Below are positions 5,798-33,142 of a stretch of DNA of 33,486 nucleotides, one piece after another. The first letter of the stretch is position 1; every line of letters begins with the position of its first letter. The notes beneath the pieces are model-generated. The model worked only from the letters and a program-made list of their open reading frames with translations. It did not search any database and was not told where the DNA came from. The stretch comes from an uncultured Nitrosomonadales bacterium. GTDB lineage: Bacteria > Pseudomonadota > Gammaproteobacteria > Burkholderiales > Gallionellaceae. The DNA lies in NCBI GenBank assembly GCA_903915035.1, contig CAIWRI010000069.1, positions 1-33,486 of the forward strand, read 5' to 3'. Made by a program: the position numbers and the translations under genes.

Positions 5798-7942
5798 ATG
5801 GAAAAAGTGACGGATGGGCTATTGCAGTTAAAAGTATCCGAGGCACTGGGTAAGGATGTCGGGCGGGCGCTGGCAAGAATAGACCCGGCGGATTTCACGT
5901 TGCTGGGTGTTGAAATTGGCGACATTATTGAGATTGTCGGGAAGCGTCGCACGGTGTGCAAGGTCATGCCGGCTTTCAAGGATGACAGAGGCGGGGCGCG
6001 AATCCAGATAGACGGCGTGTCGCGCGGCAATGCGGAAATTTCCCTGGAAGAGGTCGTAACAGTCAGGAAAGTTGCCGCCCAACCGGCGCAGCGCATGGTT
6101 TTGTCTCCTACTGCAGCAGGGTTTTCTGATCGCGACCTGCAATACATAGGCACAAGACTGGACGGGCTGCCGGTACTGGAAGGAGACCGGATACGCGGCA
6201 CCCTGTTTGGTAGCCGCTTTGTGGATTTTTTAGTCAGGGAAACCGAACCCGGCGGTCCTGTATTGATAACGCCAACCACGCTGTTGACGGTGGGGCCCGC
6301 GCGCACGGAGGCCAGAACAGGCTCGGTCGGACGGCCCTCCTTTTCCTATGAGGATGTCGGCGGACTGAAGCGCGAAGTGCAGCGTGTCCGTGAAATCGTT
6401 GAATTACCGTTGCGTTATCCTGAGGTGTTTACCCGGCTTGGCATTGATGCACCTAAGGGGATTTTACTGTACGGACCACCGGGCTGCGGCAAGACGCTGA
6501 TCGCACGTGCGGTCGCACATGAGACCAATGTACGGTTTTTCACGATCAGCGGCCCTGAGATTATGCAGAAGTTTTACGGCGAGTCCGAAGGATATCTGCG
6601 TAAATTATTCGAAGATGCGACGAAACAGGCGCCGTCTATTATTTTTATAGATGAAATTGATTCCATTGCACCGAAGCGTGAATCGCTGGGGGGCGAGCAT
6701 CAGGTCGAAAGGCGGGTGGTCGCCCAATTGCTCAGTCTGATGGATGGCTTGAAGTCAAGGGGGCAGGTTATTGTCCTTGCCGCCACCAACATTCCGAATG
6801 CGATTGATCCCGCGCTGCGCAGGCCGGGGCGCTTTGATCGTGAAGTGGTCATTCCCATTCCTGACCGGCATGGTCGTTTGGAGATACTGGAGATTCACAG
6901 TCGCGGCATGCCATTGGCGCGTGACGTCGATTTGACCCGCCTGGCGGATGTAACGCATGGTTTTGTCGGTGCAGATCTGGAAGCATTGTGTCGGGAAGCC
7001 GCGATGATCTGTGTTCGGCGTATTCTGCCGGAAATTGATTTTGCCCAGGCTTCTTTGCCCTATGAGTCCTTGCAAAAACTGGAACTTTGTCTGGATGATT
7101 TCCTCACCGCGCTACGCTCCATTGAACCATCGGCCTTGCGTGAAGTGTTTGTCGAGGTTCCCAATACAGCCTGGGAGGATGTAGGCGGACTGGTTGAGCC
7201 TAAGCGCCTGCTGCGCGAGGCGTTGGAGTGGCCGTTGTTGCATGGCGAAATGTTTAAGGCGGCAGGCATTCGTCCACTCAAGGGAATACTGCTGTCAGGC
7301 CCGCCCGGTTGCGGCAAAACCCTGCTGGCACAGGCAGCAGCCAGCGCCACACAGGTGAATTTTATTTCTGTCAAAGGACCCGCTTTGATGTCGAAATACA
7401 TCGGTGAATCCGAGCACGCCGTGCGCGAAGTGTTCCGCAAGGCAAAGCAGGCCGCGCCTTGTCTGGTATTTTTCGATGAGATTGATGCCCTGGTGCCGCG
7501 TCGTGGTGGAGGTGCTTCGGATGCCGGCGTCGGCGAACGTGTCGTAGCTCAGTTTCTGGCCGAATTGGACGGTGTCGAAAAGCTGAATGGCGTGCTGGTG
7601 CTGGCGGCGACCAATCGGCTGGATATGATAGATCCTGCCCTGAGGCGACCGGGTCGCTTCGATCTTGTGGTAGAAATTCCGTTGCCTGATGAAACTGAGC
7701 GTCTGGCCATTTTACAGGTACAGGCGCGAGGCAAACCCGTCTCCGCTGAGGTGGATTTGGCGGCAATGGCGAGCAATACACAAGGTTTAACAGGCGCTGA
7801 CCTTGGTGCCGTCTGTCAGTATGCGGCTATGAATGCGATTCGCGAGCGAGTCGGCCGCGGACAACAGTCAACACTTGACGCTTCCCCCTTGTGTATTGAA
7901 GTGCAACATTTTGAGGCTGCATTACGTCAGGTTGGAAAATGA
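5798..7942 (+). CDS. CDC48/p97-like double AAA+ ATPase
   Basis: A 714-residue protein with a CDC48 N-type substrate domain (about 1-165) followed by two AAA+ modules. Module 1 has Walker A GPPGCGKT (226-233) and Walker B IIFIDEID (D285/E286). Module 2 has Walker A GPPGCGKT (501-508) and Walker B LVFFDEID (D560/E561). Both keep the arginine-finger segment RRPGRFD, so both should hydrolyse ATP. CDC48-type proteins are hexameric unfoldases or segregases. Inside a gas vesicle operon this one probably remodels or extracts Gvp assembly intermediates. It overlaps the next gvpF gene by 4 bp (ATGA). An AAA+ gene follows gvpH in Serratia-type clusters as I recall (gvpZ), but I leave the symbol blank. 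Confidence 0.92.
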   Translation: MEKVTDGLLQLKVSEALGKDVGRALARIDPADFTLLGVEIGDIIEIVGKRRTVCKVMPAFKDDRGGARIQIDGVSRGNAEISLEEVVTVRKVAAQPAQRMVLSPTAAGFSDRDLQYIGTRLDGLPVLEGDRIRGTLFGSRFVDFLVRETEPGGPVLITPTTLLTVGPARTEARTGSVGRPSFSYEDVGGLKREVQRVREIVELPLRYPEVFTRLGIDAPKGILLYGPPGCGKTLIARAVAHETNVRFFTISGPEIMQKFYGESEGYLRKLFEDATKQAPSIIFIDEIDSIAPKRESLGGEHQVERRVVAQLLSLMDGLKSRGQVIVLAATNIPNAIDPALRRPGRFDREVVIPIPDRHGRLEILEIHSRGMPLARDVDLTRLADVTHGFVGADLEALCREAAMICVRRILPEIDFAQASLPYESLQKLELCLDDFLTALRSIEPSALREVFVEVPNTAWEDVGGLVEPKRLLREALEWPLLHGEMFKAAGIRPLKGILLSGPPGCGKTLLAQAAASATQVNFISVKGPALMSKYIGESEHAVREVFRKAKQAAPCLVFFDEIDALVPRRGGGASDAGVGERVVAQFLAELDGVEKLNGVLVLAATNRLDMIDPALRRPGRFDLVVEIPLPDETERLAILQVQARGKPVSAEVDLAAMASNTQGLTGADLGAVCQYAAMNAIRERVGRGQQSTLDASPLCIEVQHFEAALRQVGK

Positions 7943-8763
7943 GCGATACAGCGGTCGTTACAGAGCATGCAATCTATCTTTACTGTCTGGCGAGGCCTGA
8001 ATGCCTTGCGGTATTACAGAATTTGAGCGGAGTGGACGAGCACTTCCCTGTGACAGCGTTGTGCGGTTGCGAGGGTAGTGTGGTCGCGGTGATCAGTGAA
8101 GTTGATCCGGCAGAATTTTCAGAACAAAATTTGCAGATGTTGTCGTGGTTGGGTGTGCGTGCGCAACGACATGAGGCTGTGGTGGAACGCGTGATGGCTA
8201 GCTCGCCACTTTTGCCGGTCAAGTTTGGCACGCTGTTTCGTTCTTTAGCCAGCCTGCAGGCATATCTGGGGCTGAATGTTGTTTCGATCTCGCGTGCTCT
8301 GGATGAATTGCGGGGACTGGTCGAGTGGAGCGTTAAGGTTTATCTGGCAGAGTCGGTGGCTCGTCCTCTCGTGGTTGCCCGGGATGAGGATATTCAGTCA
8401 AAAATTGCCGCGATGCCGGCGTCCCCCGGTGCTCGTTATATCCAGCTAAGGCAACTGGAGAGTAAAATTGAGGTATCGCTGAATATCTGGATTAACCGGC
8501 TAGCTGAGGCTATTCAAAGCGAGTTGATTGTGCATGCCGTGGCATCAACCCGGTTGCGTCGTCACTCAAGTGCCATCACAGGACGGCCTGAGCGGATGGT
8601 CTTTAATCGTAGTTATTTACTCAGCGATATGATGCTGGCTGATTTTCGTGCGGCGCTCGCCAGGCAGCAGGCTGAGTACCTGGATAGTGGTATCTCGCTG
8701 GTACTGCAAGGGCCATGGCCACCTTACAATTTTTGTCCTACGCTTGCGGGGAGTGAATCATGA
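7939..8763 (+). CDS. gvpF: GvpF/GvpL family gas vesicle protein
   Basis: A 274-residue member of the GvpL/GvpF family. Evidence is the N-terminal strand (AIYLYCLARPE), the family block LLPVKFGTLF at about 94-103, the RSYLLSD segment, and the C-terminal GPWPPYNF motif. GvpF and GvpL are assembly factors; GvpF of Halobacterium binds GvpA and is proposed to prevent its premature aggregation. This copy overlaps the AAA+ gene upstream (ATGA at 7939) and the histidine kinase downstream (ATGA at 8760) by 4 bp each. It is one of three paralogues in the locus, which are diverged from each other rather than recent duplicates. Confidence 0.9.
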   Translation: MSDTAVVTEHAIYLYCLARPECLAVLQNLSGVDEHFPVTALCGCEGSVVAVISEVDPAEFSEQNLQMLSWLGVRAQRHEAVVERVMASSPLLPVKFGTLFRSLASLQAYLGLNVVSISRALDELRGLVEWSVKVYLAESVARPLVVARDEDIQSKIAAMPASPGARYIQLRQLESKIEVSLNIWINRLAEAIQSELIVHAVASTRLRRHSSAITGRPERMVFNRSYLLSDMMLADFRAALARQQAEYLDSGISLVLQGPWPPYNFCPTLAGSES

Positions 8764-10661: not shown

Positions 10662-10674
10662 CTGAGGAATGCTT

Positions 10675-11745
10675 ATGCCAACTAAAAAATTCATCTATGC
10701 GGTTGTCGAAAATGATCTGCTATCGCTTGCCGGCATCACAGGGCTTGCCGCAGCACCGCTCGAAATGGTCTGTTATAACAATCTGGCCGCAGTGGTCAGT
10801 GACATTGATGCCGTGCGTTTTGATACGGAATTATCGGAACAAGGAACGTCCAATCAGCTTAATGCCGATCTGCTGGCCTATCAGCAGGTAAATTTTCAGC
10901 TATTAAGCGGTTCCGGCGGTATGCTACCACTTAAATTTGGCTTTACTGCAGGTAATCGCAGCGAAGTCGAAGCGGTTCTGGAGCATGCTTATCTGCAACT
11001 GCGTTCCGGTTTGGACAGGCTACGAAATCAGGTTGAATTAGTGGTTCAGGTCACCTGGGATATGAACAAAATTATTTCTGAAATTGCGTATGACCATGCC
11101 GAATTTATCAGCGCAGATCCCGTTAAGACCGGAAAATTCCTGTTTGAAGCGGCCCAGGCGAAGAAAATTGAATTGATAGACTTGATTAACAAGCAACTTT
11201 CGCCACTTGCCGGTGATTTTTCCGACGGGCCGCGCAAAGCGGAGGATATGATCCTGAATCGCAGTTATCTGGTAGACAGGCGCAGTGAAACACAGTTTGA
11301 TGCAGCGATGAATACGCTAGGGAATTGCTATGACGGAATTTTAAGTTTTCGCTACATTGGCCCGCTGCCTGCATATAGTTTCGTCAATATTGAACTGAAT
11401 CAGGGCAACTTTATTTTACTGGATAAGGCGAGAAAAATTCTGAAACTGCAGCAAACGACGACTTGGGGAGGCATAAAATCTGCCTATCGTCAGCAACTAA
11501 TGGCTTATCACCCGGATTTTCATCCAGATGACGCACAAGCCGCAGAGCGGTGTAAAGAGGTAATCGCAGCCTTTGACATGGTAAGTGCTTATTGCCGGAG
11601 TTTTCCAGATTTTTCGGGAAATGACAGTAGCTATGATTTTAGCCGGAATGAGGTCGAAAAGCACTTCATTGTCGATACTAAATCAGCGGTGTTATCTCGT
11701 GGAGCCGCCTCACGTTCCGTTGTGCCTGATGGTATTTCGCTATGA
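10675..11745 (+). CDS. gvpF: GvpF/GvpL protein fused to a C-terminal J-domain
   Basis: A 356-residue protein. Residues 1-240 are GvpF/L: KKFIYAVVEN at the N-terminus, MLPLKFGF at 83-90, NRSYLVD near 195-201, and GPLPAYSFV at about 229-237. Residues about 248-312 read as a DnaJ J-domain: ARKILKL, a helix, YRQQLMAYHPDFHPDD with the obligatory HPD at 279-281, then a helix III/IV region. The last 45 residues look disordered. J-domains stimulate Hsp70 ATPase, and the very next gene, overlapping by 4 bp, encodes an Hsp70. The ATG at 10675 was chosen over 10669 because GAGGA (10664-10668) is then 6 bp away. By inference it targets Hsp70 to gas vesicle proteins. Confidence 0.88.
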   Translation: MPTKKFIYAVVENDLLSLAGITGLAAAPLEMVCYNNLAAVVSDIDAVRFDTELSEQGTSNQLNADLLAYQQVNFQLLSGSGGMLPLKFGFTAGNRSEVEAVLEHAYLQLRSGLDRLRNQVELVVQVTWDMNKIISEIAYDHAEFISADPVKTGKFLFEAAQAKKIELIDLINKQLSPLAGDFSDGPRKAEDMILNRSYLVDRRSETQFDAAMNTLGNCYDGILSFRYIGPLPAYSFVNIELNQGNFILLDKARKILKLQQTTTWGGIKSAYRQQLMAYHPDFHPDDAQAAERCKEVIAAFDMVSAYCRSFPDFSGNDSSYDFSRNEVEKHFIVDTKSAVLSRGAASRSVVPDGISL

Positions 11746-13523
11746 GTAAAACCATTGGTATTGATTTGGGTACGACTAACAGCTGTATGGCTGTGATGAT
11801 GGAAGGCGAGGCGGTAGTGATTCCGAATGCGGAAGGGGAGCGCACCACGCCGTCTGTGGTTGCCTTCATGGATGACGGTCAATATCTGGTAGGTCGTGCT
11901 GCGAAAAATCAGCAACTGGACAATCCCCTTAACACGTTTTTTTCGATAAAACGTTTCATGGGGCGCAAATGGAATGAGGTTGTAAATGAGATGGCGATGG
12001 TTCCCTACCAAATCAGGAGGGGAGCGACTGATGAGCTGTATGTTGTGGCTAATGACCGTGAGTATGCACCGCAGCAGATCAGTGCATTGATATTGCAAAA
12101 GCTCAAGCGTGATGCGGAGGCTTATCTTGGTTGTATGGTGACGGACGCGGTGATTACCGTCCCTGCCTATTTTAACCATGCTCAGCGCGAAGCGACCCGC
12201 GATGCGGGGCAAATTGCCGGGCTGAATGTGTTGCGTATCATTAATGAACCCACCGCTGCGTCGTTGGCTTACGGGCTGGATCAGGTGAATGAACAGAAAA
12301 TTCTGGTGTTCGACCTGGGCGGCGGCACTTTCGATGTGTCGATACTTGACTTGGGCGAAGGGCTGTTTGATGTAAAGGCCACCAATGGCGACAATCACCT
12401 TGGGGGAGATGACTTTGATCAGGCTATCGTCAACTGGATGATCACTGAGTTCAAGAATGATCAAGGCATAGATTTGGCTGCTGACAAAGAGGCCTTGCCG
12501 CGTCTTTATCAGGCTGCCGAGCAGGCGAAAATCACCCTTTCTAAAGCGGGGTATGTCGACATTAATTTGCCTGCTATCGTCACAACTTCTGCGGGTGCAA
12601 GTCACCTTGTCCTGCAACTGACGCGTGAAAAGCTGGACGGGATTGCAGGAGAGTTGCTGCGGGCCGCCCTGCTGCCGATTAAGCAAGCCTTATCGGATGC
12701 CGCCATGTCTCCGGCTGATATCAATCATGTTGTTTTAGTCGGCGGGATGACCCGCATGCCGGCAGTGGTCGATACGGTTCGGCAACTGTTAGGCAAGGAG
12801 CCGCATCAAGGCGTAGATCCGGATGAAGTGGTAGCGATCGGTGCCGCTATTCAGGCGGGTATTCTTTGTGGCGAGGTTCAGGGGATCTTGCTGCTCGATG
12901 TTACCCCGTTGTCACTGGGGATAGAGACCAAAGGAGGTGTTTTTACGCGTCTGATTGCAAGAAATTCAAGCATCCCGATACGCAAAACCGAGACTTTTAC
13001 CACTGCAGTAGATAACCAGACCTCAGTTGAAATTCATGTCTTGCAGGGTGAGTCGGAAATGGCCGCTTTCAATAAGACACTGGGCATCTTTCAGTTGTCA
13101 GGCATCACGCCGGCGAGGCGTGGACTGATGGAGATAGATGTCAGTTTCGATATTGATGCGAACGGCATTATCCATGTTCATGCAGAGGATATCGTAACAG
13201 GGTGCGAACAGGAGATTCGTGTAGAAGGTGGAACCGGTTTAAGTTTCAGTGAAGTCAACAGGATGATGATGGAGGCCAGGATGCACGCCGAGATAAGCTG
13301 TCGTTTGCATGAACTGGCCGAAGCACGCAACCTGGGGGAGGTTCTTGCTGACGGGATTGACCACTCGCTTGTGGTGCAACGTGGCAAGCTCGAAACTGCT
13401 ACAACGACTCTGATTGAGCGTCAGCTTTTAAGTTTGCGTCAGGCAATGGCCGGTAATGACATCATTGAAATACGCGCCAAAATCAGAGCGGTCACAGCAG
13501 CGGCCCAGATTCTCATTGCATAA
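11742..13523 (+). CDS. Dedicated Hsp70 (DnaK-like) chaperone of the gvp locus
   Basis: A 593-residue Hsp70. The nucleotide-binding domain has [10 protein letters not shown] at the N-terminus, the phosphate-2 loop [10 protein letters not shown] and [12 protein letters not shown]. The interdomain linker reads [18 protein letters not shown], so the hydrophobic LLLDVTP core is kept, although the Asp normally found before it is Gly. A substrate-binding beta domain follows. The C-terminal lid is short: the protein ends about 45 residues earlier than a typical 638-residue DnaK and lacks the conserved acidic tail. No grpE or dnaJ neighbour is present. It is coupled (ATGA at 11742) to the GvpF-J-domain gene. 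It is therefore probably a specialised paralogue serving gas vesicle assembly, not the housekeeping DnaK. Confidence 0.93.
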
Positions 13524-13547
13524 ATGCGGGTCGTGATTCCATAGGTA

Positions 13548-13561
13548 TGGCGGTCGCGCCA
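13548..13561. other. TGGCG-N4-CGCCA hairpin after hsp70
   Basis: A perfect 5-bp GC-rich stem with a 4-nt loop 24 bp after the Hsp70 stop codon and about 140 bp upstream of the gvpA sigma-54 promoter. There is no T-run, so a terminator role is doubtful. Its position would also suit an upstream activator binding site. A second small dyad CTATA-N3-TATAG lies at 13602-13614. Confidence 0.35.
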
Positions 13562-13690
13562 CAGATATTCCACCTCACTTGATTTATAAAATATTATCGG
13601 CCTATAAGATATAGAACACTCTGTCAGATAAATTTATTTATACTTTTGATTTTTAAGTGTTTTATTTTTATTTTGCGAATTACAAATCTT

Positions 13691-13705
13691 TGGCGTCAAG
13701 ATTGC
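13691..13705 (+). promoter_or_regulatory. Sigma-54 promoter of gvpA
   Basis: TGGCGTCAAGATTGC matches the sigma-54 consensus TGGCAC-N5-TTGC, with the invariant GG (13692-13693) and GC (13704-13705) exactly 10 bases apart. Transcription would begin near 13717, leaving about 75 nt of leader before gvpA. An NtrC-type activator with an intact GAFTGA loop is encoded in the same locus. This was the only convincing GG-N10-GC site I found in the intergenic regions I checked. Confidence 0.75.
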
Positions 13706-13729
13706 TTATCTATAGGTACCGGAACAGAA

Positions 13730-13763
13730 ACCTGATGCTTCGGATGCAGCATACTTATCAGGT
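13730..13763 (+). other. Stem-loop in the gvpA leader
   Basis: ACCTG-ATGCT (13730-13739) can pair with AGCAT (13748-13752) and, after a 6-nt bulge, CAGGT (13759-13763). It would lie near the 5' end of the sigma-54 transcript. The likely role is 5' mRNA stabilisation of a very highly expressed message. Confidence 0.45.
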
Positions 13764-13791
13764 GTAAAAACTTTTATTTTGGAGAGCTATC

Positions 13792-14010
13792 ATGGCAAAC
13801 GTACAAAAATCTACAGATTCATCGAGTCTGGCTGAAGTGGTTGATCGTATCCTTGACAAAGGTATCGTGATTGATGCATGGGTCAAAGTGTCTTTGGTAG
13901 GCATTGAATTATTGTCAGTCGAAGCTCGCGTTGTTGTGGCATCGGTTGAAACTTATCTGAAGTACGCAGAAGCAATTGGCCTTACCGCCAGCGCTGCAGC
14001 ACCGGCTTGA
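13792..14010 (+). CDS. gvpA: Major gas vesicle shell protein GvpA, copy 1
   Basis: A 72-residue protein with the strongly conserved GvpA core: [49 protein letters not shown]. GvpA polymerises into the ribbed, gas-permeable vesicle wall. The short Ala-rich C-terminus (TASAAAPA) is like that of cyanobacterial GvpA. GGAGAG at 13781-13786 precedes the ATG by 5 bp. It is the first gene after the sigma-54 promoter. Confidence 0.98.
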
Positions 14011-14021
14011 TAGGTTTGATT

Positions 14022-14048
14022 CAGATAGCCTTCTTGTGAGGCTATCTG
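14022..14048 (+). other. Strong hairpin between the two gvpA copies
   Basis: CAGATAGCC (14022-14030) and GGCTATCTG (14040-14048) form a perfect 9-bp stem with a 9-nt loop, 11 bp after the gvpA copy 1 stop. No T-tract follows. It probably stabilises the gvpA mRNA 3' end and/or causes partial termination, favouring gvpA over downstream genes. Confidence 0.6.
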
Positions 14049-14143
14049 CTTGACCACAGGAGATTTGCCCGCTGGTCTAAGATGTAAGATGTTGGTTTGA
14101 ATTGTTGTTCCTTAGGTTAAAAACATAAATTAGGAGAACTATC

Positions 14144-14362
14144 ATGGCAAACGTACAAAAATCTACAGATTCATCGAGTCTGGCTGAAGTGGTTGATCGT
14201 ATTCTTGACAAAGGCATCGTGATTGATGCATGGGTCAAAGTATCTCTGGTGGGTATTGAACTGTTGTCAGTCGAAGCTCGCGTTGTCGTGGCATCGGTTG
14301 AAACTTATCTGAAGTACGCAGAAGCAATTGGCCTTACCGCCAGCGCCGCCGCACCAGCTTGA
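14144..14362 (+). CDS. gvpA: Major gas vesicle shell protein GvpA, copy 2
   Basis: A 72-residue protein identical to copy 1 at every residue. By my alignment the two 219-bp genes differ at 12 positions, all synonymous. The ribosome-binding segments are also nearly the same (AGGAGA at 14132-14137, then ACTATC before the ATG). No second sigma-54 promoter is visible in the 133-bp gap, so it is probably read from the copy 1 promoter through the hairpin. Confidence 0.98.
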
Positions 14363-14369
14363 GTAGCCC

Positions 14370-14403
14370 GTGTTCTGCTTCTATTGTCGAAGAAACGGAA
14401 CAC
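14370..14403 (+). other. Hairpin after gvpA copy 2
   Basis: GTGTTC (14370-14375) pairs with GAACAC (14398-14403), and inside it CTTC (14378-14381) pairs with GAAG (14389-14392). It lies 8 bp after the stop. With no T-run it is more likely an mRNA 3' stabiliser or attenuator than a full terminator. Confidence 0.5.
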
Positions 14404-14528
14404 TTTACGCCTTTTACGTAAATTCAGATCGTAAGCGCGTTTCGCGATAGTTTTTGAATCTATGCGAGGCGTGGAGCCTGACTTTATGGAGGCAAGGTCG
14501 GCAGGATAAGGCGATTCAGGAGGTTATT

Positions 14529-14957
14529 GTGAGCAGAATAGATGATATGACCAGGTTGCACGATCATGTTCAGGCGGGGCATCGGACGCGGAAGTCTCTT
14601 GTTGCTTTCCTGGTGAGTGGTGGCGCCGAAAGAAGAGTGACGGTAGGTGCCGTTCGCCGGGCGAATGTTGCTGAAAATGATGAACGAAGTAGAAGTTTGA
14701 TGGCGAGTCTCCTGACGTTCATGGGAGGCTTGACAGCGCAGGAAAAAGGACGTCGACAAGCGGCTGCGCGCGCACATAAATCGCGCGTGACGTTTATCAA
14801 GAAGTTGGAACGCGATGTGGCCTCTCTGGCACATGGCGTTGCGTTGACAAGACAAGCAAACCGTGCCGAAAATGCAGCTTCGTCTGCCGCTTGGACCGGG
14901 GTGGCTGTTGTTGCATCAGGCAAACGGAGCGCGAAGTCTTCACGCGCAGCAGCATAG
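14529..14957 (+). CDS. GvpC-like repeat protein
   Basis: A 142-residue basic, helical protein starting at GTG 14529, chosen because AGGAGG at 14518-14523 sits 5 bp before it (the TTG at 14454 has no such signal). Residues about 20-125 can be read as three degenerate repeats of about 33-38 residues, beginning RKSLVAFLVSGGAE, SRSLMASLLTFMGG and RVTFIKKLERDVAS. Each has a hydrophobic pattern in its first half and RxAN/RQAAARA/RQAN in its second. GvpC, the outer strengthening protein, is known for amphipathic repeats of about 33 residues and is often encoded right after gvpA, as here. Homology is inferred from repeat design and position rather than sequence identity. The tail GKRSAKSSRAAA is basic and probably disordered. 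Confidence 0.65.
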   Translation: MSRIDDMTRLHDHVQAGHRTRKSLVAFLVSGGAERRVTVGAVRRANVAENDERSRSLMASLLTFMGGLTAQEKGRRQAAARAHKSRVTFIKKLERDVASLAHGVALTRQANRAENAASSAAWTGVAVVASGKRSAKSSRAAA

Positions 14958-15040
14958 AACGGGTTGCGGATGCGCATAGGTATCCGCACTCGCCTGTTGC
15001 CAGATGTCTTCTGAAGGTGTGTATCCACGGGAGAGTGAAC

Positions 15041-15592
15041 ATGAATAACAATTTGGGACGACTTTGCGTGACTAAAGAAATGATACAGGTCGGGCGCATG
15101 GCTCGTCAGGCGGATCATCTGCAGCGTCACGAATTTATAGCCCGACTCAAGCGTGAAGTTTCAGACTTGAGACGAGGATTGATTGCTGAAAATAGTGCGG
15201 TGCACAGAGCCTGGTTTGGTCCTACATCGGCAGAAATAGCTGCGACTAAGAAGGAAGCATTTGAAAAGGCTGCTCTGCATGCTAAAAAAGCGGCAGAAAC
15301 CGAAGCTGCCAGGATGGCAAAAGCTGCGGAGCAGGATGCACTTGTCAAGAAAATGAAGGACGAAGCGGAGCGCGCGAAAAAAGCGGCCGAAATGCTTCGT
15401 GCGAAGAAAGCTGCAGAAGTTCAGGCCAAAGCGAAACTGGCTGCGGAAGTCGCTGAAGCTGATCGAGTTAGTGCCGCACTCGCTGATGAGGAGGCAACTC
15501 GGGTCAGCAATGAAGTTGAAGCAGCGCAAGCGGCTCAGGTCAATGAGGTTGCAGAAGCAACCGAGTCAACACCGACACAAAATATCCACTAA
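15041..15592 (+). CDS. Ala/Lys/Glu-rich coiled-coil protein with one GvpC-like repeat
   Basis: A 183-residue protein starting at ATG 15041 after GGGAGAG (15029-15035). Residues about 25-60 (HEFIARLKREVSDLRRGL) resemble the third repeat of the preceding protein (TFIKKLERDVASLAHGV), so the two are related. Residues about 70-170 are a long, highly charged Ala/Lys/Glu helix with KKAAE and AKKAAEM motifs, forming an extended single helix or coiled coil. A likely role is a vesicle-surface or cytoplasmic tether protein of the GvpC type. It could instead be a filament-like spacer. Low-complexity composition makes homology claims unsafe. Confidence 0.65.
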   Translation: MNNNLGRLCVTKEMIQVGRMARQADHLQRHEFIARLKREVSDLRRGLIAENSAVHRAWFGPTSAEIAATKKEAFEKAALHAKKAAETEAARMAKAAEQDALVKKMKDEAERAKKAAEMLRAKKAAEVQAKAKLAAEVAEADRVSAALADEEATRVSNEVEAAQAAQVNEVAEATESTPTQNIH

Positions 15593-15680
15593 CGCGAAAA
15601 GAGGCGCACGGGTCACTCTACCGGGTGGCTTTATGTGGCGAGTGCGCCGGGTGCGTCATCAACAACGAAAGGCTAATACC

Positions 15681-16709
15681 ATGAATCAGCAAGCGGTGGA
15701 AATCGTGAGAGTCCGTGCCAACGATAGCGACAATGTATTACCTGAACCCAGCGATGAATTTGTTCTGACACCCTACGTTCAGGAGTTATCCGATCGTGCC
15801 CTGACTTATCTGCAAGCCGGTTACGCGGTGCACTTTTCAGGTCCTGCTGGTATAGGTAAGACTACATTGGCTTTCCATGTGGCTGCTCAGTTGGGGCGCT
15901 CGGTCAGTCTGATTCATGGCGATGATGAGTTTGGAAGTTCTGATTTAATCGGCCGCGAGTCTGGGGTGCGTCGTCACAGACTGGTTGATAATTATCTTCA
16001 CAATGTGTTGAAAACAGAGGAAGAAGTGAATAGTATGTGGGCGGACAATCGTCTTACCACTGCCTGCCAGAACGGCGAAACGCTTATTTACGATGAGTTT
16101 ACCCGCTCACGTCCTGAGGCAAATAATGCACTGTTGAGTATTTTGTCAGAAGGAATTCTAAATATTCCCAAAATGCGAAATTCAGGTGAAGGTTACATGG
16201 GCGTACATCCCGAATTCCGCGCAATTTTTACTTCCAACCCTGAAGAATATGCCGGCACGCATAAAACACAGGATGCCTTGATGGATCGGATGATTACTAT
16301 CAAGATGGGGCATTATGATCGGGAAACCGAGATCAGCATCACAGTAGCCAAGACGGGGATTGATCTGTCAGATGCCACCAACATCGTTGACGTTGTGCGC
16401 GAGTTGCGCAATGTCGGGGTGAATAAGCAGCGCCCGACGATACGTGCTTGTATCGCCATTGCCCGTGTCCTGGTAATTCGTGCCGGTCATGCAAAATGGG
16501 ATGATCCCGTTTTTCAATGGGTCACAAGGGATGTCTTGAGCGTAGAGATGGCGAAGGTCACGCGTGGCGGCGAACCTATCATGGTTCAATCGTTAGGTGA
16601 TGTTATCCAAAGGGTATGCGGCGATGCGCGTAAGGCGCAAAAAAAATCGGTTGACGAAGCTTCTGATTTCAGAGCCTTGGCAAGCGAACTGGTGGGAGTA
16701 AGGTCATGA
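15681..16709 (+). CDS. gvpN: GvpN AAA+ ATPase
   Basis: A 342-residue MoxR-type AAA+ protein. Walker A is GPAGIGKTT (54-62), Walker B is LIYDEF with D138/E139, and it is followed by the family block TRSRPEANNALLSILSEG. A sensor-1-like IFTSNPEEYAG segment comes later. GvpN is a conserved gas vesicle accessory ATPase that promotes vesicle growth from small bicones. The start at ATG 15681 follows AAAGG at 15668-15672; longer open frame upstream overlaps the preceding gene and is not used. The stop overlaps the next start by 4 bp. Confidence 0.95.
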   Translation: MNQQAVEIVRVRANDSDNVLPEPSDEFVLTPYVQELSDRALTYLQAGYAVHFSGPAGIGKTTLAFHVAAQLGRSVSLIHGDDEFGSSDLIGRESGVRRHRLVDNYLHNVLKTEEEVNSMWADNRLTTACQNGETLIYDEFTRSRPEANNALLSILSEGILNIPKMRNSGEGYMGVHPEFRAIFTSNPEEYAGTHKTQDALMDRMITIKMGHYDRETEISITVAKTGIDLSDATNIVDVVRELRNVGVNKQRPTIRACIAIARVLVIRAGHAKWDDPVFQWVTRDVLSVEMAKVTRGGEPIMVQSLGDVIQRVCGDARKAQKKSVDEASDFRALASELVGVRS

Positions 16710-17014
16710 GCACCAAAAACAGACCCAGAGGATTGGAGAGTATTCGCTCGATTTCAGGTTTGGTGACTGAGGCGACACATCCTCACCGGAAATTTTTGAA
16801 GTTGGCTATACTTGCGATGGAGGAGGCGCGTCGTGGCAAGGAAAAAGCAAGCGCACAGGCTCGAATCGATAATATCGACGAACGACTTGTTGAAATCAGG
16901 GCTGAATCAGGAGCCTTGCTCGACGTCTGTAATGAGATTATTAATGTCGCAACTGACACAGCATCGCAAAATGATACTAAACAGACTAAACGTGGCTTCA
17001 CACTGAGGTATTGA
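16706..17014 (+). CDS. gvpV: GvpV-like gas vesicle accessory protein
   Basis: A 102-residue protein, coupled to gvpN by ATGA. It begins with a basic segment (RPRGLESIRSISGLV) and continues with a long helix containing EEARRGKEKASAQARIDNID, then RLVEIRAES. This layout, a short SIRS-type N-terminus then an ARR-KEK-A-A-RI-NID-R--EI helix, is what I recall for GvpV proteins encoded next to gvpN in cyanobacteria and Serratia. The precise function is not established. Confidence 0.7.
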   Translation: MSTKNRPRGLESIRSISGLVTEATHPHRKFLKLAILAMEEARRGKEKASAQARIDNIDERLVEIRAESGALLDVCNEIINVATDTASQNDTKQTKRGFTLRY

Positions 17015-17016
17015 AC

Positions 17017-17193
17017 ATGATCATCCTGAAGTATAAAAAACAACTACGCACCAGCAAGGATATCGCTGGCTTCCACCGGTGTTTACAAGCGACAGGCTTG
17101 CCTCTGGCTGTAGTGCAGCGCAGGTGTGGTGTTATGCCTGCTTTGCGGTTGAGCAGGAAACGAAAAAAGTTGTCTGAGCTGTTTGGTTTGTAG
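17017..17193 (+). CDS. Small basic protein of unknown function
   Basis: A 58-residue open frame starting MIILKYKKQLRTSKD, 2 bp after the gvpV-like stop. It has 13 or more Lys/Arg, two Cys and no recognised domain. It could be a real operon member or a chance ORF: there is no good ribosome-binding site other than GAGG at about 17005-17008, and codon use gives no clear verdict. Confidence 0.4.
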   Translation: MIILKYKKQLRTSKDIAGFHRCLQATGLPLAVVQRRCGVMPALRLSRKRKKLSELFGL

Positions 17194-17271
17194 TGTATGC
17201 TCGCCATTTAACGTGAAACTCGCGTAGCGATTTTTCTTTTTCATCTCCCTCAGAGGTCGTTGGGATTGTGA

Positions 17272-17291
17272 AAAGTGAGCGGTTTCACTTT
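17272..17291 (+). other. Hairpin upstream of gvpF
   Basis: AAAGTGA (17272-17278) and TCACTTT (17285-17291) form a 7-bp stem. It overlaps the candidate -35 box of the next promoter, so it may be a regulator site rather than an RNA structure. Confidence 0.35.
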
Positions 17292-17319
17292 GGCTGGTTT
17301 CAGGGTGTATCGCTATAGT
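17290..17319 (+). promoter_or_regulatory. Candidate sigma-70 promoter before gvpF
   Basis: TTGGCT (17290-17295), an 18-bp spacer and TATAGT (17314-17319), followed by AAGGA and the gvpF start. It could give the assembly genes a basal supply independent of sigma-54. The match is moderate. Confidence 0.35.
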
Positions 17320-17336
17320 AAATAAAGGAAATAAAA

Positions 17337-18098
17337 ATGACCATGGGCAAATACATCTACGCAGTAATTGATGTGGTGGGTGACAAAATCTATGATGAGC
17401 CATGTGGCCTCAATGGTGCTGTTCTGCATACAATTTCCTGTGGCCAAATCACTGCGGTTGTGAGCGATTTGGTGGATAAAAGGATACGTCCGGAGCGTAA
17501 AAATCTGGCGGCGCATAATTCTGTAATCAAACATTTGATGGGGGAAGTTCCCAGTCTTCTTCCCGTAAAATTTGGAACACTTGCCAATAGCGCTGAGGCC
17601 GTTAGGGAGTTGCTCCGGGAAAATAATGACACGTTGGTCGCAGAATTGGACAAGGTACGCGGACGCGTCGAAATGGGTCTGCATGTAAAACTGGACGTAG
17701 CGAATGTTTTTGAATACATGGTGAATAGTCAGCCTGAACTGGGTGCTTTGCGTGATCGCGTGTACGGGCGGCAGCGCGGGCCCACACAGATGGATCAGAT
17801 TGAACTGGGTAGCATGTTCGACCGTTTACTCAGTAAGGAGCGTGAACGTTACACTGATGCGGTGATCGCGGTACTGGGTATTCGTTGTGCTGACATTAAG
17901 CAGAATCCGCCCAGAGACGGAGAGGTAATGAACTTGGCTTGTCTGGTCGACCGCGATGCACAGCAAGCATTCGAGGATGGTGTTTGCGAAGCCGCCAATC
18001 TGTTTGATAGTAATTTCTCCTTTGATTTTAACGGACCTTGGGCACCACATAATTTTGTCGACGTCAATTTGACTGAGGCATCCTATGTTTCTGCTTGA
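17337..18098 (+). CDS. gvpF: GvpF/GvpL family gas vesicle protein
   Basis: A 253-residue GvpL/GvpF family protein: KYIYAVIDVV at the N-terminus, LLPVKFGTLAN at about 78-88, a helical middle, and GPWAPHNFVDVNL near the end. It is the third family member in the locus and the one next to gvpG, the most common arrangement across gas vesicle clusters. AAGGA (17325-17329) supports the ATG at 17337. It overlaps gvpG by 14 bp. Role: assembly factor binding GvpA. Confidence 0.93.
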   Translation: MTMGKYIYAVIDVVGDKIYDEPCGLNGAVLHTISCGQITAVVSDLVDKRIRPERKNLAAHNSVIKHLMGEVPSLLPVKFGTLANSAEAVRELLRENNDTLVAELDKVRGRVEMGLHVKLDVANVFEYMVNSQPELGALRDRVYGRQRGPTQMDQIELGSMFDRLLSKERERYTDAVIAVLGIRCADIKQNPPRDGEVMNLACLVDRDAQQAFEDGVCEAANLFDSNFSFDFNGPWAPHNFVDVNLTEASYVSA

Positions 18099-18348
18099 TA
18101 AGTTACTTACCGCACCGCTTTTGTGGATAGCACGGGAAATTAACGACGCAGTCCAAAAGGAAAAGGTAGAAGAGTCTGAAGCAATAACCCGATCGCTCAG
18201 CGAGTTGTACATGAGACTTGAGACTGGTGAGATTACTGAACAGGAATTTGAGCTTGAGGAAACCCGGTTGCTCGATAGGCTTGATGCTATCGAGTTACGC
18301 AATAAGGCTGATGAGGATACTAATGAATCATCCATACAACATCATTAG
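18085..18348 (+). CDS. gvpG: Gas vesicle protein GvpG
   Basis: An 87-residue GvpG. The hydrophobic N-terminus (FLLDKLLTAPLLWIAREI) and the following acidic helix (LSELYMRLETGEITEQEFE, then LLDRLDAIE) are family hallmarks. GvpG is an essential minor assembly protein, usually encoded beside gvpF as here. It starts inside the gvpF coding region, which implies translational coupling. Confidence 0.93.
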   Translation: MFLLDKLLTAPLLWIAREINDAVQKEKVEESEAITRSLSELYMRLETGEITEQEFELEETRLLDRLDAIELRNKADEDTNESSIQHH

Positions 18349-18380
18349 GCTGGATATTTTGCTTTACTGAAAGAAATCAA

Positions 18381-20357
18381 ATGAAGGCGGGAGATCGTAC
18401 TTTAACGCAGGCAGAACCCGCCTTTTTGAGTGATGATGCACTGCGTCTGTTGCTATTCGGTGGCAAGGGTGGGGTGGGGAAAACGACCTGTGCCGCAGCC
18501 ACAGCCCTTCGTCTGGCTCAACAACATCCGGAGCGCCTCTTTTTGCTGGTATCGACTGATCCTGCACATTCCTTGCTTGATTGTTTCAATGGTTCCTCAC
18601 CGCCCGATAATCTGACTTTGTGTGAGATTGATCCGCAGGATAGTCTGAAGCGATTCAAAGCGGGTCATGAGGAACATTTGCGCGATATCGCACTACGCGG
18701 AACTTTTCTGGATGAAGCCGATGTAACACGATTTTTGGATATTTCCATGCCTGGCCTGGATGAAATCATGGCGCTTCTGGAAATAGCGAACTGGGTAAAT
18801 CAGAACCGTTACGCTTGCATTGTGGTGGACACAGCTCCGGCCGGACATACGCTCCGCTTGCTAGGACTTCCCGAAATCATGCGCCAGTGGGTGCAGATAC
18901 TTGATGCAATGCTTGCAAAACACAGGTATCTGGTCGAGCTTTACCGGGGCGCATACATTAAAGATGCAGCGGACCTGTATTTAGAACAAACCATGGCCGA
19001 CCTGACTCACTTGAATACGCTGTTGCAATCATCTGAAAGCTGTCGCTTCATACCTGTTATGACCGCTGAGTTTATGAGTATTTCAGTGACACGGCAAATG
19101 CTTGTCGAGCTTGAGCAGTTAGCACTTCCCGTGCATGAGCTGATTATTAATCGTCTGCGCACGGAGCAGAAAACATGCGCTTTGTGCTGCGACTCATTCG
19201 CCAGACAAACCGTTGCAATTGTAAAGTTGAAGTCGATCTTTTTAAATTACAGCTTGTGGGGGCTGCCGCTTTTTCTTGATGAAATGCAGGGCGCTAAGCG
19301 CCTGTCGAGGCTGTGGCAGGCCACGCTGCCGCTGGAGCAGGAAAATGGAAAGAGTAACTTATTCTCAATGAATGCCGTGCAGAATAATCATAATATTCAG
19401 TATTCAGCGGTTAGTAATCCCTGCCCGCGTCCTGCTGCTTCGATGAAACTTATCTTGTTCGCTGGCAAAGGCGGTGTGGGCAAGACATCCCTGGCATGCG
19501 CCTCAGCGCTGCATTTTGCAAAAACAGAGGGAGAGAAGGAAATTATGCTTTTCTCAATCGATCCGGCGAATTCGCTGGCAACATGCCTGGGTATTGAGGT
19601 CGGTTCAAAAGAAGTTAGGGTGGTGCCGGGGTTGACTGTGATCGAGATGGATGCTCAGGCCGAGTACGCACGTTTAAAGCAGAATTATGCAGACGAATTG
19701 AGGCTCGTACTTGATCGTCATGCCGGGCAGGGCCAGGCAGGGGCTGAACTCACCTTTGATCGTGAGGTTATGGAACGTATTCTGGATATGGCACCTCCGG
19801 GCCTGGACGAAGTATTGGCACTCACCAGAGTCGTGGGTTTGATGGAGAGTGGACAATATGATCTGTTTATCCTGGATACTGCTCCTACGGGGCATCTGTT
19901 GCGTTTTTTAGAAATGCCGGAACTGATTGAGCGATGGCTTAAAACCTTCTTCGCGCTGTTTTTGAAATATCGCGAGATATTTTGGTTGCCCAAAGTTTCT
20001 CAGATGATGATTGACCTTTCCAGACAGTTGAAGCTGTTCCGGCGTGTGCTTATTGACGCACGGCAAGCGATGCTGGTGGCCGTCACGATTCCCTCTGAAA
20101 TGGCATTGGCTGAAACAAAGGATTTGCTGATTGCTTGTAAGCGGTTAGGCGTGACTGTACCAACCCTGATGGTGAACATGGTTACGCCATCCTCTTCTTG
20201 TCCTGTCTGTTCTGTATTACACAGCACAGAGCAACGGGTGCTCGGGAAATATGACGTAAATTTTCCAGATAGCCACAGGACTGTGGTATTTAGCCGGAAA
20301 GAGCCACGCGGAATCGACAGTTTACGTGCTTTGGGCTGTGCAATGTACGCAGTGTAG
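18381..20357 (+). CDS. Tandem Get3/ArsA-type ATPase with a CxxC motif in each half
   Basis: A 658-residue protein made of two homologous SIMIBI-class ATPase halves. Half 1 has GGKGGVGKTT (27-36), STDPAHS and DTAPAGHTLRLL. Half 2 has AGKGGVGKTS (361-370), SIDPANS and DTAPTGHLLRFL. Both keep the deviant Walker A lysine and the switch residues. Each half also has a C-terminal CxxC: C266/C269 (CALCC) and C607/C610 (CPVC). In Get3 a CxxC pair from each subunit binds the zinc that holds the dimer, so this looks like a single-chain Get3 pseudodimer rather than an arsenite pump ATPase. No arsB, arsR or arsD neighbour is present. Position between gvpG and the minor shell genes suggests it chaperones hydrophobic Gvp proteins. 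The ribosome-binding site is weak. Confidence 0.88.
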   Translation: MKAGDRTLTQAEPAFLSDDALRLLLFGGKGGVGKTTCAAATALRLAQQHPERLFLLVSTDPAHSLLDCFNGSSPPDNLTLCEIDPQDSLKRFKAGHEEHLRDIALRGTFLDEADVTRFLDISMPGLDEIMALLEIANWVNQNRYACIVVDTAPAGHTLRLLGLPEIMRQWVQILDAMLAKHRYLVELYRGAYIKDAADLYLEQTMADLTHLNTLLQSSESCRFIPVMTAEFMSISVTRQMLVELEQLALPVHELIINRLRTEQKTCALCCDSFARQTVAIVKLKSIFLNYSLWGLPLFLDEMQGAKRLSRLWQATLPLEQENGKSNLFSMNAVQNNHNIQYSAVSNPCPRPAASMKLILFAGKGGVGKTSLACASALHFAKTEGEKEIMLFSIDPANSLATCLGIEVGSKEVRVVPGLTVIEMDAQAEYARLKQNYADELRLVLDRHAGQGQAGAELTFDREVMERILDMAPPGLDEVLALTRVVGLMESGQYDLFILDTAPTGHLLRFLEMPELIERWLKTFFALFLKYREIFWLPKVSQMMIDLSRQLKLFRRVLIDARQAMLVAVTIPSEMALAETKDLLIACKRLGVTVPTLMVNMVTPSSSCPVCSVLHSTEQRVLGKYDVNFPDSHRTVVFSRKEPRGIDSLRALGCAMYAV

Positions 20358-20375
20358 TAAATGTGAATAGCTAGA

Positions 20376-20386
20376 TGCTATATAAT
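20376..20386 (+). promoter_or_regulatory. Candidate -10 region before the TPR-gvpS-gvpK-gvpJ genes
   Basis: TGCTATATAAT contains TATAAT (20381-20386) preceded by a TG that could act as an extended -10. No clear -35 box is seen. A palindrome CGAGTACTCG (20397-20406) lies just downstream at the expected start of transcription and could be an operator. Confidence 0.35.
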
Positions 20387-20420
20387 TAAACCAGTACGAG
20401 TACTCGCGGAGTATCTGAAA

Positions 20421-20699
20421 ATGGAAAATATCATGATGGAATCCGGCAATGACTGCCCCGTAGTGAAAACCAGGCGATCATTGACAGAACGGCTGTTTGA
20501 CATGGCTAATCAATATCGCAAAGAAGGGAATTTCCGGCAGGCTGCTGAAATGTACTGGACGCTTGTGGAGGCTCATGCTGGTACGAAGCAGGCGGGCGAG
20601 GCTCGTGTGGTATTGTTGGAAATAGCCGACGAGTATGAATGTAATAATGCAAGGCGAATGGCGCGGAGTATCTACGAAAGACTAATGTCTCTTGAATGA
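20421..20699 (+). CDS. Small TPR-like helical protein
   Basis: A 92-residue protein. Residues 25-92 fit about two tetratricopeptide-like helical pairs: LFDMANQYRKEGNFRQAAEMYWTLVEA, then ARVVLLEIADEYECNNARRMARSIYERL. TPR modules mediate protein-protein contacts, often with Hsp70-type chaperones. It sits between the Get3-like ATPase gene and the minor shell genes. GGAG at 20408-20411 precedes the ATG. It is not one of the widely conserved gvp genes I can name. Confidence 0.7.
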   Translation: MENIMMESGNDCPVVKTRRSLTERLFDMANQYRKEGNFRQAAEMYWTLVEAHAGTKQAGEARVVLLEIADEYECNNARRMARSIYERLMSLE

Positions 20700-20717
20700 T
20701 GACGCCACGAACGACAT

Positions 20718-20742
20718 GGGATACGCATATTAATCGTATCCC
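20718..20742 (+). other. Intercistronic hairpin
   Basis: GGGATACG (20718-20725) and CGTATCCC (20735-20742) form a perfect 8-bp stem with a 9-nt loop between the TPR gene and the gvpS-like gene. Without a T-run it is more likely an mRNA processing or stability element. Confidence 0.5.
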
Positions 20743-20764
20743 GGAAAGATGAAAAGGAATGGTG

Positions 20765-20980
20765 ATGGGATATTCTGAAAGTGAAGGCGTTTCGTTGTGC
20801 GACTTGTTGGATAGGGTGTTGAATATGGGTGTGGTCGCGACAGGCGATATCGTCATTTCGGTGGCTGGCGTGGATCTGATTTATATAAACCTGCAACTTC
20901 TGCTAAGCTCGGTTGAAACCGCGCTCGATGGTGGCATGCTGTTTAAGCCAAAGACTGAATCCTTACCGGTGGCGCTATGA
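20765..20980 (+). CDS. gvpS: GvpA-family minor protein (GvpS/GvpJ-like)
   Basis: A 71-residue GvpA paralogue: VSLCDLLDRVLNMGVVATGDI, then VAGVDLIYINLQLLLSSVE. The core follows the GvpA fold (LLDRVL--G-V), but ID and W residues of true GvpA are replaced and the C-terminus differs. It is therefore a minor shell or nucleation component of the GvpJ/M/S group (gvpA2-type in Serratia) rather than the main wall protein. The ATG at 20765 was chosen because AAGGA (20754-20758) lies 6 bp before it; in-frame ATG 20759 would overlap that site. It overlaps gvpK by 4 bp. Confidence 0.85.
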   Translation: MGYSESEGVSLCDLLDRVLNMGVVATGDIVISVAGVDLIYINLQLLLSSVETALDGGMLFKPKTESLPVAL

Positions 20981-21297
20981 AAGAAACGATGGAATTTCTC
21001 TTCCCCTCCCCTGATGAGAAAACTGAAAAACGTCGCCCGCGCATTGAGCTTGATCCTGAGAAAGTTAAAAAAGGCTTGGGGCAGCTGGTGTTGACGCTGG
21101 TGGAATTGATTCGCCAGTTGCTTGAAAAGCAGGCGCTACGCAGGATTGAAGGTGGTTCATTGACAGAGCATGAAATTGAGATGCTTGGCTTAACTTTCCT
21201 TGAATTGAATGAACAAATGAAACGCTTGAAAAATGATTTCGGGTTGACCGATGAAGATTTGAATCTGGATCTGGGACCGCTTGGTAAATTGTTGTAA
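20977..21297 (+). CDS. gvpK: Gas vesicle protein GvpK
   Basis: A 106-residue GvpK: RIELDPEKVKKGLGQLVLTL, VELIRQLLEKQALRRIEGGSL, then a helix LGLTFLELNEQMKRLKNDFG and the end LNLDLGPLGKLL. This is the standard pattern of the family, including the DLGPLG tail. GvpK is an essential minor component conserved across gas vesicle clusters. It is translationally coupled to the gvpS-like gene upstream (ATGA) and 30 bp from gvpJ. Confidence 0.96.
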   Translation: MKETMEFLFPSPDEKTEKRRPRIELDPEKVKKGLGQLVLTLVELIRQLLEKQALRRIEGGSLTEHEIEMLGLTFLELNEQMKRLKNDFGLTDEDLNLDLGPLGKLL

Positions 21298-21327
21298 ATA
21301 AAGTCAGATTAAATGGGTAGATAGCAA

Positions 21328-21684
21328 ATGACGACAGGAACACAAAAAAGCATTACACATGGAACAGACTCATCAACTCTGGCTGATGTGCTGGAGCGCA
21401 TTCTGGACAAGGGAATGGTGATTGCGGGTGACATCAAAATCAATCTGGTGGATATTGAGTTGTTGACGATACAGATACGTCTGCTTATCTGCTCGGTAGA
21501 TAAGGCAAAAGAGATGGGTATCGACTGGTGGAGTACCAATCCCTACCTTAAACCGCTGCCTGTCCCCGAACAATCCCAGCTTGTAGAACTGAATGAACGT
21601 ATCGCATTGCTGGAAAAGACGCAACAAGATAATACTTCCTTGAAGGTAAAAGCAAAAAGATCCGGAACGCATAAGGTGCTGTGA
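21328..21684 (+). CDS. gvpJ: GvpJ-type GvpA paralogue with coiled-coil tail
   Basis: A 118-residue protein. Residues 15-65 match the GvpA/GvpJ core: SSTLADVLERILDKGMVIAGD, IKINLVDIELLTIQIRLLI. Residues about 68-75 (MGIDWW) are typical of GvpJ, which carries IDWW after the core. The tail has a heptad-like LVELNERIALLEKTQQ helix and a basic end. GvpJ is a minor component implicated in vesicle shape and nucleation. This is the last recognisable gvp gene of the locus. Confidence 0.92.
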   Translation: MTTGTQKSITHGTDSSTLADVLERILDKGMVIAGDIKINLVDIELLTIQIRLLICSVDKAKEMGIDWWSTNPYLKPLPVPEQSQLVELNERIALLEKTQQDNTSLKVKAKRSGTHKVL

Positions 21685-23021: not shown

Positions 23022-23022
23022 C

Positions 23023-23706: not shown

Positions 23707-23707
23707 A

Positions 23708-29603: not shown

Positions 29604-29612
29604 GACTTAAAT

Positions 29613-30785: not shown

Positions 30786-30787
30786 CC

Positions 30788-33116: not shown

Positions 33117-33127
33117 AATCAATTCCA

Positions 33128-33142
33128 TTCGGTTCGGTTCGG
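33128..33142. repeat. Three tandem TTCGG pentamers
   Basis: TTCGG is repeated three times directly upstream of the PEP-CTERM start (CCGAA on the coding strand). The AACC it contains could pair with the GGTT of the aptamer's 3' strand, so it might take part in the riboswitch expression platform. That is speculative. Confidence 0.4.

Follow-up and report, generated by a model that had tools for sequence, protein, structure and literature searches.

A gas vesicle gene cluster of an uncultured Gallionellaceae bacterium probably encodes a client-dedicated Hsp70/J-protein pair beside an independent Get3-fold ATPase

In this study, we analyzed contig CAIWRI010000069.1 of an uncultured Nitrosomonadales bacterium (Gallionellaceae; assembly GCA_903915035.1; 33,486 nucleotides, hereafter the window), which carries a gas vesicle (gvp) gene cluster. 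We propose that this cluster probably encodes a client-dedicated Hsp70/J-protein pair beside an independent Get3-fold ATPase, forming a parallel chaperone network and no linear relay of the kind known from the GET (guided entry of tail-anchored proteins) pathway. At sequence level the core of this proposal is firm: one protein unites a GvpF domain and a J domain whose HPD motif is intact, and the next gene encodes a DnaK of a non-housekeeping lineage. Jointly with this pair reading, and at the same good confidence, the locus appears to be a gvp cluster of the Serratia sp. ATCC 39006 type, extended by a dedicated Hsp70 pair.

The fusion protein, called GvpF-J here, recurs in many bacteria. In a protein search that scored 8000 candidates, 101 of the 117 listed homologues (own protein included) carry both Pfam domains, and the nearest named relatives among the matches listed belong to Gallionella and Nitrotoga. 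All 25 aligned fusions keep the HPD motif unchanged, and it is present in all 32 distinct open reading frames (ORFs) that the J profile identifies as fusions in the loci studied. Five further candidates (L084, L088, L092, L095, L096) combine a GvpF domain with a J-like, HPD-containing tail of weak or no profile score; they bring the total to 37 fusions, with the proviso that the HPD served in part to recognize them. Fusions come from genomes of Pseudomonadota, Omnitrophota, KSB1 and the Bacteroidota and Planctomycetota sets described below. A genome scan returned 27 loci, 20 of which are fusions, and all 20 fusion-bearing genomes also encode gvpA. In the Methylococcaceae loci the GvpF-J/DnaK pair is separated from the main gvp cluster, with no main gvp genes mapped beside it; since gvpA nevertheless accompanies the fusion in 20 of 20 genomes, the pair tracks gas vesicles rather than a genomic position. 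In a GvpF-domain tree of 61 rows from 26 loci of our choice, the 11 fusions fall into one group (one change, 84/62, 81% of bootstraps), which makes a single origin likely without securing it. The fusions cluster with F1-type and plain Bacteroidota-set rows and not with F3 rows, and the idea that GvpF-J is GvpF3 plus a J domain was discarded; the Marinobacter fusion, which sits in the F3 slot, is outside the rows of this tree. Many aligned fusions also carry a conserved YSFxxExVEKxFI-like tail motif after the J domain, a possible docking peptide.

The partner gene is largely conserved in position among Pseudomonadota. In the window the DnaK start overlaps the GvpF-J stop by 4 bp, and a DnaK lies directly downstream of the fusion in 18 of 19 Pseudomonadota fusion loci (L008-L021, L023, L024, L157 and the window; the DnaK of L019 is cut by the contig end), with frames overlapping or 4 bp apart. 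The J-protein/Hsp70 pair named in the original prediction for this DNA is thus upheld. In phylogenetic trees, 11 gvp-linked DnaKs form a clade (93/94) apart from the housekeeping DnaKs of the same genomes, and, with the own paralogues as the only comparison, a clade of 16 gvp DnaKs is supported at 100/99. Their C-termini are distinct as well: the 16 full-length gvp DnaKs have neither a terminal EEVD nor the DAEF(E/T)EVK tail, which is kept in 7 of 7 housekeeping DnaKs (L140, L150-L155). Other short acidic C-termini are found in the gvp DnaKs of L011, L015 and L017. Those of L014 and L024 end in YDVD, which is loosely EEVD-like, and their genomes (G067, G077) have no TPR (tetratricopeptide repeat) gene in the gvp locus. 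Named strains with the pair are Marinobacter gelidimuriae (L010) and Methylobacter psychrophilus (L016). In searches of the open-access literature, subscription journals being outside their scope, none of the papers listed was seen from its listing to name the GvpF-J/DnaK pair, and 'gas vesicle' combined with 'Get3' or 'DnaJ domain' gave no match.

How the hydrophobic GvpA stays soluble before shell insertion is presented as an open subject in the available text of PMC10903477, and GvpF, which binds GvpA, is its proposed or likely chaperone (PMC9501494, PMC11445434, PMC10903477). Judging from the GvpF domain only, the GvpF part of the fusion would hold a GvpA-family subunit, likely by its first helix. 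The J domain would trigger ATP hydrolysis on the neighbouring DnaK, which would take over the hydrophobic subunit and keep it soluble until its release, with the cell's nucleotide exchange factor, allows shell insertion with GvpG and GvpN. Such an organization is like that of class C client-specific J-proteins with a dedicated Hsp70, in which one protein unites the J domain with a client-binding domain and its gene is coupled to that of a separate Hsp70; here, the client would be a gas vesicle shell protein and the client domain GvpF. We take HscA/HscB to be an example of a J-protein paired with a dedicated Hsp70. GvpF-J and its private DnaK make the question of GvpA solubility directly testable, with the HPD as a one-residue switch. 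If the proposal is true, the pair would offer candidate helpers for heterologous gas vesicle expression, a field in which 5 of 15 clusters tested gave detectable vesicles in E. coli (PMC10344784, in the part available).

The fused J domain could also recruit Hsp70 for quality control or vesicle turnover, together with the CDC48-type ATPase and Hsp20, and not for assembly. Such a role would fit the fusions without a neighbouring DnaK outside most Pseudomonadota and the finding that 22 of the 31 gvpA-bearing Methylococcales genomes encode a CDC48-type ATPase within the gvp stretch. Against it stand the separate DnaK that adjoins the fusion in nearly all Pseudomonadota loci and the proposal, in the same partly available sources, that GvpF proteins bind fresh GvpA. 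We therefore regard turnover as unlikely.

The genes of the window cluster, as assigned by Pfam scans (E cut-offs 0.1 and 0.01), synteny and structural models, are the following.

5208..5786, + strand: gvpH, Hsp20-like (HSP20 at 9.3e-5; GvpH profile under the cut-off)
5798..7942, + strand: CDC48-type double AAA ATPase in the GvpZ position by synteny (CDC48_N, CDC48_2, AAA twice)
7939..8763, + strand: second plain gvpF/L (PF06386, 5.5e-45)
10669..11745, + strand: GvpF-J, a GvpF/L domain joined to a J domain (PF06386 and PF00226)
11742..13523, + strand: DnaK/Hsp70 of 593 aa, its customary C-terminal tail missing (PF00012)
13792..14010, + strand: gvpA copy 1, a likely client (PF00741, 3.8e-17)
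14144..14362, + strand: gvpA copy 2, protein identical to copy 1 by translation (PF00741, 3.8e-17)
15675..16709, + strand, start approximate (listed ORF from 15399): gvpN AAA+ ATPase (AAA_5, 2.4e-16)
17337..18098, + strand: gvpF1, without J domain (PF06386, 6.2e-61)
18085..18348, + strand: gvpG (PF05120, 1.2e-12)
18381..20357, + strand: tandem ATPase of the ArsA/Get3 fold, placed like GvpW in the Serratia order (two ArsA_ATPase stretches)
20421..20699, + strand: 92-aa protein, two TPR hairpins; its family corresponds to the GvpX position of the Serratia order (AF2 model, fold matches)
20759..20980, + strand: gvpA paralogue, A2/S/M type by position (PF00741, synteny)
20977..21297, + strand: gvpK (PF05121, 7e-33)
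21328..21684, + strand: gvpA paralogue, A3/J type by position (PF00741, synteny)

Sensor and regulator genes were also detected in the cluster by Pfam scans. The two gvpA copies encode identical 72-aa proteins, and tandem runs of gvpA copies likewise occur in some Methylococcaceae loci, e.g., L050 and L052.

The same genes are known, in another arrangement, from Serratia sp. ATCC 39006, whose order is given as gvpA1CNVF1GWA2KXA3Y/gvrAgvpHZF2F3gvrBgvrC in Table 1 of PMC9501494, a source seen in part. The window has its regulator/H/Z block upstream and its TPR gene before A2 rather than after K; the Serratia order lists no GvpF-J or DnaK, while the window has both. As far as their stretches reach, L050 (Methylobacter), L062, L101, L107, L108, L114, L116 and L117 follow the Serratia order, a comparison that covers all genes but C and Y, with V not detected in L062. 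In these Serratia-order loci ArsA occupies the W slot, the TPR gene the X slot and the CDC48-type ATPase the Z slot. Named homologues of the TPR protein and of ArsA also come from Pectobacteriaceae CE90 and CE70, the family to which Serratia strain 39006 presumably belongs.

The genetics reported for Serratia suggest what the W and X slots contribute. According to the available part of PMC4982088, A1, F1, G, A2, K, A3, F2, F3 and the regulator genes are required, N and V mutants form bicones, and W, X, Y, H and Z are outside the required-gene list; likewise, W and X are not among the 11 essential genes given in the part of PMC5601083 at hand. In PMC10344784, again in part, vesicles persist in native Serratia when C, W, X, Y, H or Z is deleted. 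In E. coli, the same source reports that the ultrasound signal is lowered or abolished when C, H, W, Y or Z is missing, and that loss of X raises the xAM signal and lowers opacity. The ATPase of the GvpW slot and the TPR protein of the GvpX slot may thus be cluster accessories that tune assembly, and not fixed stations downstream of the Hsp70 pair. The letter W names different proteins, since W is a putative GvpL homologue in the review PMC11267810 and, for cyanobacteria, distantly GvpL/F-like in PMC2963123 (both in the parts available), and the W slot here is ArsA.

The window ATPase comprises 658 aa in two ArsA_ATPase stretches. Across 12 of 12 sequences the deviant Walker A motif GKGGVGK, D60/D394, the DTAP-type switch II and the CxxC cysteine pairs C266/C269 and C607/C610 are invariant or nearly so; we take D60/D394 to be the catalytic Asp residues. 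Get3 chains top the fold list for the C-terminal half (VIA-align over the Foldseek ranking), whereas the N-terminal half is barely covered by that list. The best solved relatives by sequence are the tandem ArsA-type proteins 5zme and 9nbl, with Get3 ranking third. In Get3, the CxxC pair binds zinc (PMC10248533, in the part available). A frame of ArsA single-domain length (947-1070 bp) is found in 15 Bacteroidota-set gvp loci among L079-L096, L135 and L136; the window and its Pseudomonadota relatives have the tandem form instead.

These features leave room for two related proposals. In the first, two independent ATP-driven holdases serve GvpA-family clients, i.e., Hsp70 with GvpF-J and the Get3-fold GvpW, the latter shielding an amphipathic GvpA-type helix in the groove where Get3 takes up tail anchors, and the TPR protein acting as a local adaptor near GvpK/GvpJ. 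This is possible though doubtful, given the ranking of tandem ArsA-type structures before Get3, the poor coverage of the N-terminal half, the putative nature of client binding and the persistence of vesicles after W-slot deletion in Serratia. Still less probable, in our view, is a system of two chaperones trading clients, in which a private Hsp70 recruited by GvpF-J exchanges them with the tandem Get3-fold ATPase, which would hold GvpA-family helices as Get3 holds tail anchors and be docked by the TPR protein near GvpK/GvpJ at the growing tip.

Database names of the ATPase relatives, mostly 'arsenite-transporting ATPase' or 'ArsA family ATPase', would suggest arsenite resistance with an incidental gvp neighbourhood. 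In E. coli ArsA, arsenite is bound by cysteines 113, 172 and 422. Castillo and Saier (2010; PMC2963123, seen in part) describe these arsenite-binding cysteines as absent outside their arsenic cluster. ArsA recurs in gvp stretches of several genome sets and no ars transporter was seen among the window proteins scanned; the arsenite reading was rejected on this genomic context and retains a negligible probability. The same paper already placed ArsA homologues in gvp operons, with a two-domain ATPase (cluster average 637 aa) beside gvp genes and hsp20, and proposed that the two-domain ArsA energizes a biogenic step. The likeness to the window is a two-domain ATPase among gvp genes; the available text offers no Get3 handover, and in its main text TPR, DnaK and DnaJ occur 0 times each. 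The suggestion that the locus holds an undescribed system therefore stands for the GvpF-J/DnaK pair, as far as the open-access literature goes, and falls for ArsA in gvp operons.

The AF2 model of the 92-aa protein has four helices (H20-33, H37-50, H55-73, H77-90) that form two TPR hairpins, an assignment supported by fold matches. PF13174/PF13428 are found in many homologues, the window protein itself being under the Pfam cut-offs. With the register of the carboxylate clamp assigned by hand on an alignment of 11 rows, position 5 of TPR1 is a Lys in 0 of 11 and position 6 of TPR2 an Asn in 0 of 11, and TPR1 Asn9 is kept in 9 of 11. A role as TPR-clamp co-chaperone was discarded on these unconserved clamp positions; a tail binding of the non-clamp kind may occur, and Tah1, which has two TPRs and binds an EEVD peptide, is among the fold matches. 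The family is present in 26 gvp loci, between gvpK and a gvpA-type gene in 21 and directly 3' of ArsA in only 2. In L126 and L131 of the Planctomycetota set the TPR gene lies between gvpN and gvpF, with no ArsA in the stretch. Distant TPR homologues (L075-L078; E 4.5e-17 to 3.9e-14) occur outside gvp loci, with no gvp gene mapped beside them, in four Methylococcaceae fusion genomes that lack a gvp-locus TPR (G067, G070, G076, G077). These were excluded from the gvp TPR counts, as were weak matches in other genomes (E 1.7e-7 to 8.7e-4, each within an ORF of at least 228 aa).

The original prediction joined these proteins into a convergent relay for GvpA-type clients, J-protein/Hsp70 to TPR protein to Get3-like ATPase, without implying homology to the yeast pathway. 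In the yeast GET/TRC (transmembrane recognition complex) pathway, the steps are Hsp70/J-protein, Sgt2 and Get3; Sgt2 combines three TPRs with a carboxylate clamp, a dimerization domain and a client-binding C-terminal domain, and the C-terminal EEVD of Hsp70 is the TPR docking site. Pfam scans, the AF2 model and the fold matches bear out the predicted gene order of a Get3-like ATPase, a small TPR-like protein and GvpA-family genes. The parts list is GET-like in so far as a Get3 fold with P-loop and CxxC pair, an Hsp70/J pair and a TPR protein share one locus. The differences are these: Get3 is a single-domain homodimer and the window ATPase a tandem; Sgt2 has three TPRs and the window protein two, without conserved clamp positions and, at 92 aa, without room for an Sgt2-type client domain; the gvp DnaKs lack the EEVD of the GET Hsp70; and the clients would be shell proteins encoded in the gvp locus. 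Neither Get4/Get5 nor Get1/Get2 was seen in the Pfam scans of 30 window proteins, with at most 25 families listed per protein.

Co-occurrence was assessed by searching gvpA regardless of the fusion in four genome sets, centre genomes counted; the fusion-bearing centres G069, G075 and G080 are in their sets by construction. gvpA was found in 31 of 301 genomes of the Methylococcales (order of G069), in 29 of 296 of the Bacteroidota set (phylum of G075; 27 of 29 mapped, G686 and G721 left out), in 15 of 246 of the Planctomycetota set (phylum of G080) and in 6 of 397 of the window's phylum set at E 0.001, 5 above the cut-off. Many genomes are fragmentary metagenome-assembled genomes in which single absences are soft, and absence counts are upper bounds because assemblies are often broken; G062, G077, G875, G884, G957, G1003 and G1012 have partial clusters only. 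Among the 31 Methylococcales, fusion and TPR occur together in 7, fusion only in 6, TPR only in 12 and neither in 6 (Fisher p = 0.71; 6/6/12/6 when G069 is left out), the corresponding tables being 11/2/11/7 for fusion by ArsA (p = 0.24) and 16/6/3/6 for ArsA by TPR (p = 0.056), in tests that treat related genomes as independent, which counts to the disadvantage of our proposal. Of the 18 fusion-negative Methylococcales, 11 thus carry ArsA. The 27 mapped Bacteroidota-set genomes hold a profile-called fusion in 10, a weaker one in 5 and ArsA in 17, with no gvp TPR and no DnaK in the stretch; a fusion fragment with a stop in G497 was left out. The Planctomycetota set has the fusion in 2, ArsA in 7 and TPR in 2 of 15, both TPR genomes showing no ArsA and no fusion in the part read. 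All four parts occur in 10 genomes, including G936 and G072 (DnaK cut by the contig end), and within one stretch in three cases: the window, L008/L035 and L010/L036.

ArsA and TPR hence come and go independently of the GvpF-J/DnaK pair. The TPR gene is also found without ArsA in the stretch read (G957, G1191, G1259; L111, L126, L131), and where docking would be expected, EEVD ends and clamp positions are missing, both YDVD-ending DnaKs coming from genomes without a gvp-locus TPR. The W- and X-slot genes are, moreover, those reported as dispensable in native Serratia. On co-occurrence, position and missing docking features we reject the four genes as one unit, and a fixed-order relay is very improbable; a matching parts list does not make a pathway.

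Several points weigh against the dedicated Hsp70/J pair as proposed here. A private Hsp70 is not required for the J-fusion, because the fusion adjoins no DnaK outside these Pseudomonadota (15 Bacteroidota-set fusion genomes, L025, L026, L027/L069) nor in L070, a Pseudomonadota genome and the lone exception among the 19 loci; such fusions would have to use the general Hsp70. In L122 a fragment of a DnaK lies about 5 kb from the fusion, and when this partial DnaK is included, support for the gvp DnaK group falls to 46/82. Support for a single fusion origin is weak, given the tree values above and the chosen loci. The GvpW and GvpX assignments are positional and not based on Serratia sequences, and the lowered or abolished signal without gvpW in E. 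coli means that W may outrank an accessory. Interaction, expression or mutant data on GvpF-J or its DnaK were not met in the literature consulted.

The window cluster is the only gvpA locus that was found in its genome, and no gvpA match was found in 36 other genomes of the genus, several of them incomplete; for these reasons the cluster was probably gained horizontally. Directly 3' of the gvp genes, 21885-32206 encodes MacB-type ABC export genes, a periplasmic adaptor and an outer-membrane factor, and ends with an AcrB-type RND pump, adaptor and outer-membrane factor. Upstream of the cluster, 418-2148 (- strand) encodes a Hemerythrin-PAS-GGDEF protein, possibly an oxygen-linked signal protein. 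The protein of 32442-33128 (- strand) has a signal-like N-terminal segment and a C-terminal end resembling what we take to be the PEP-CTERM sorting motif.

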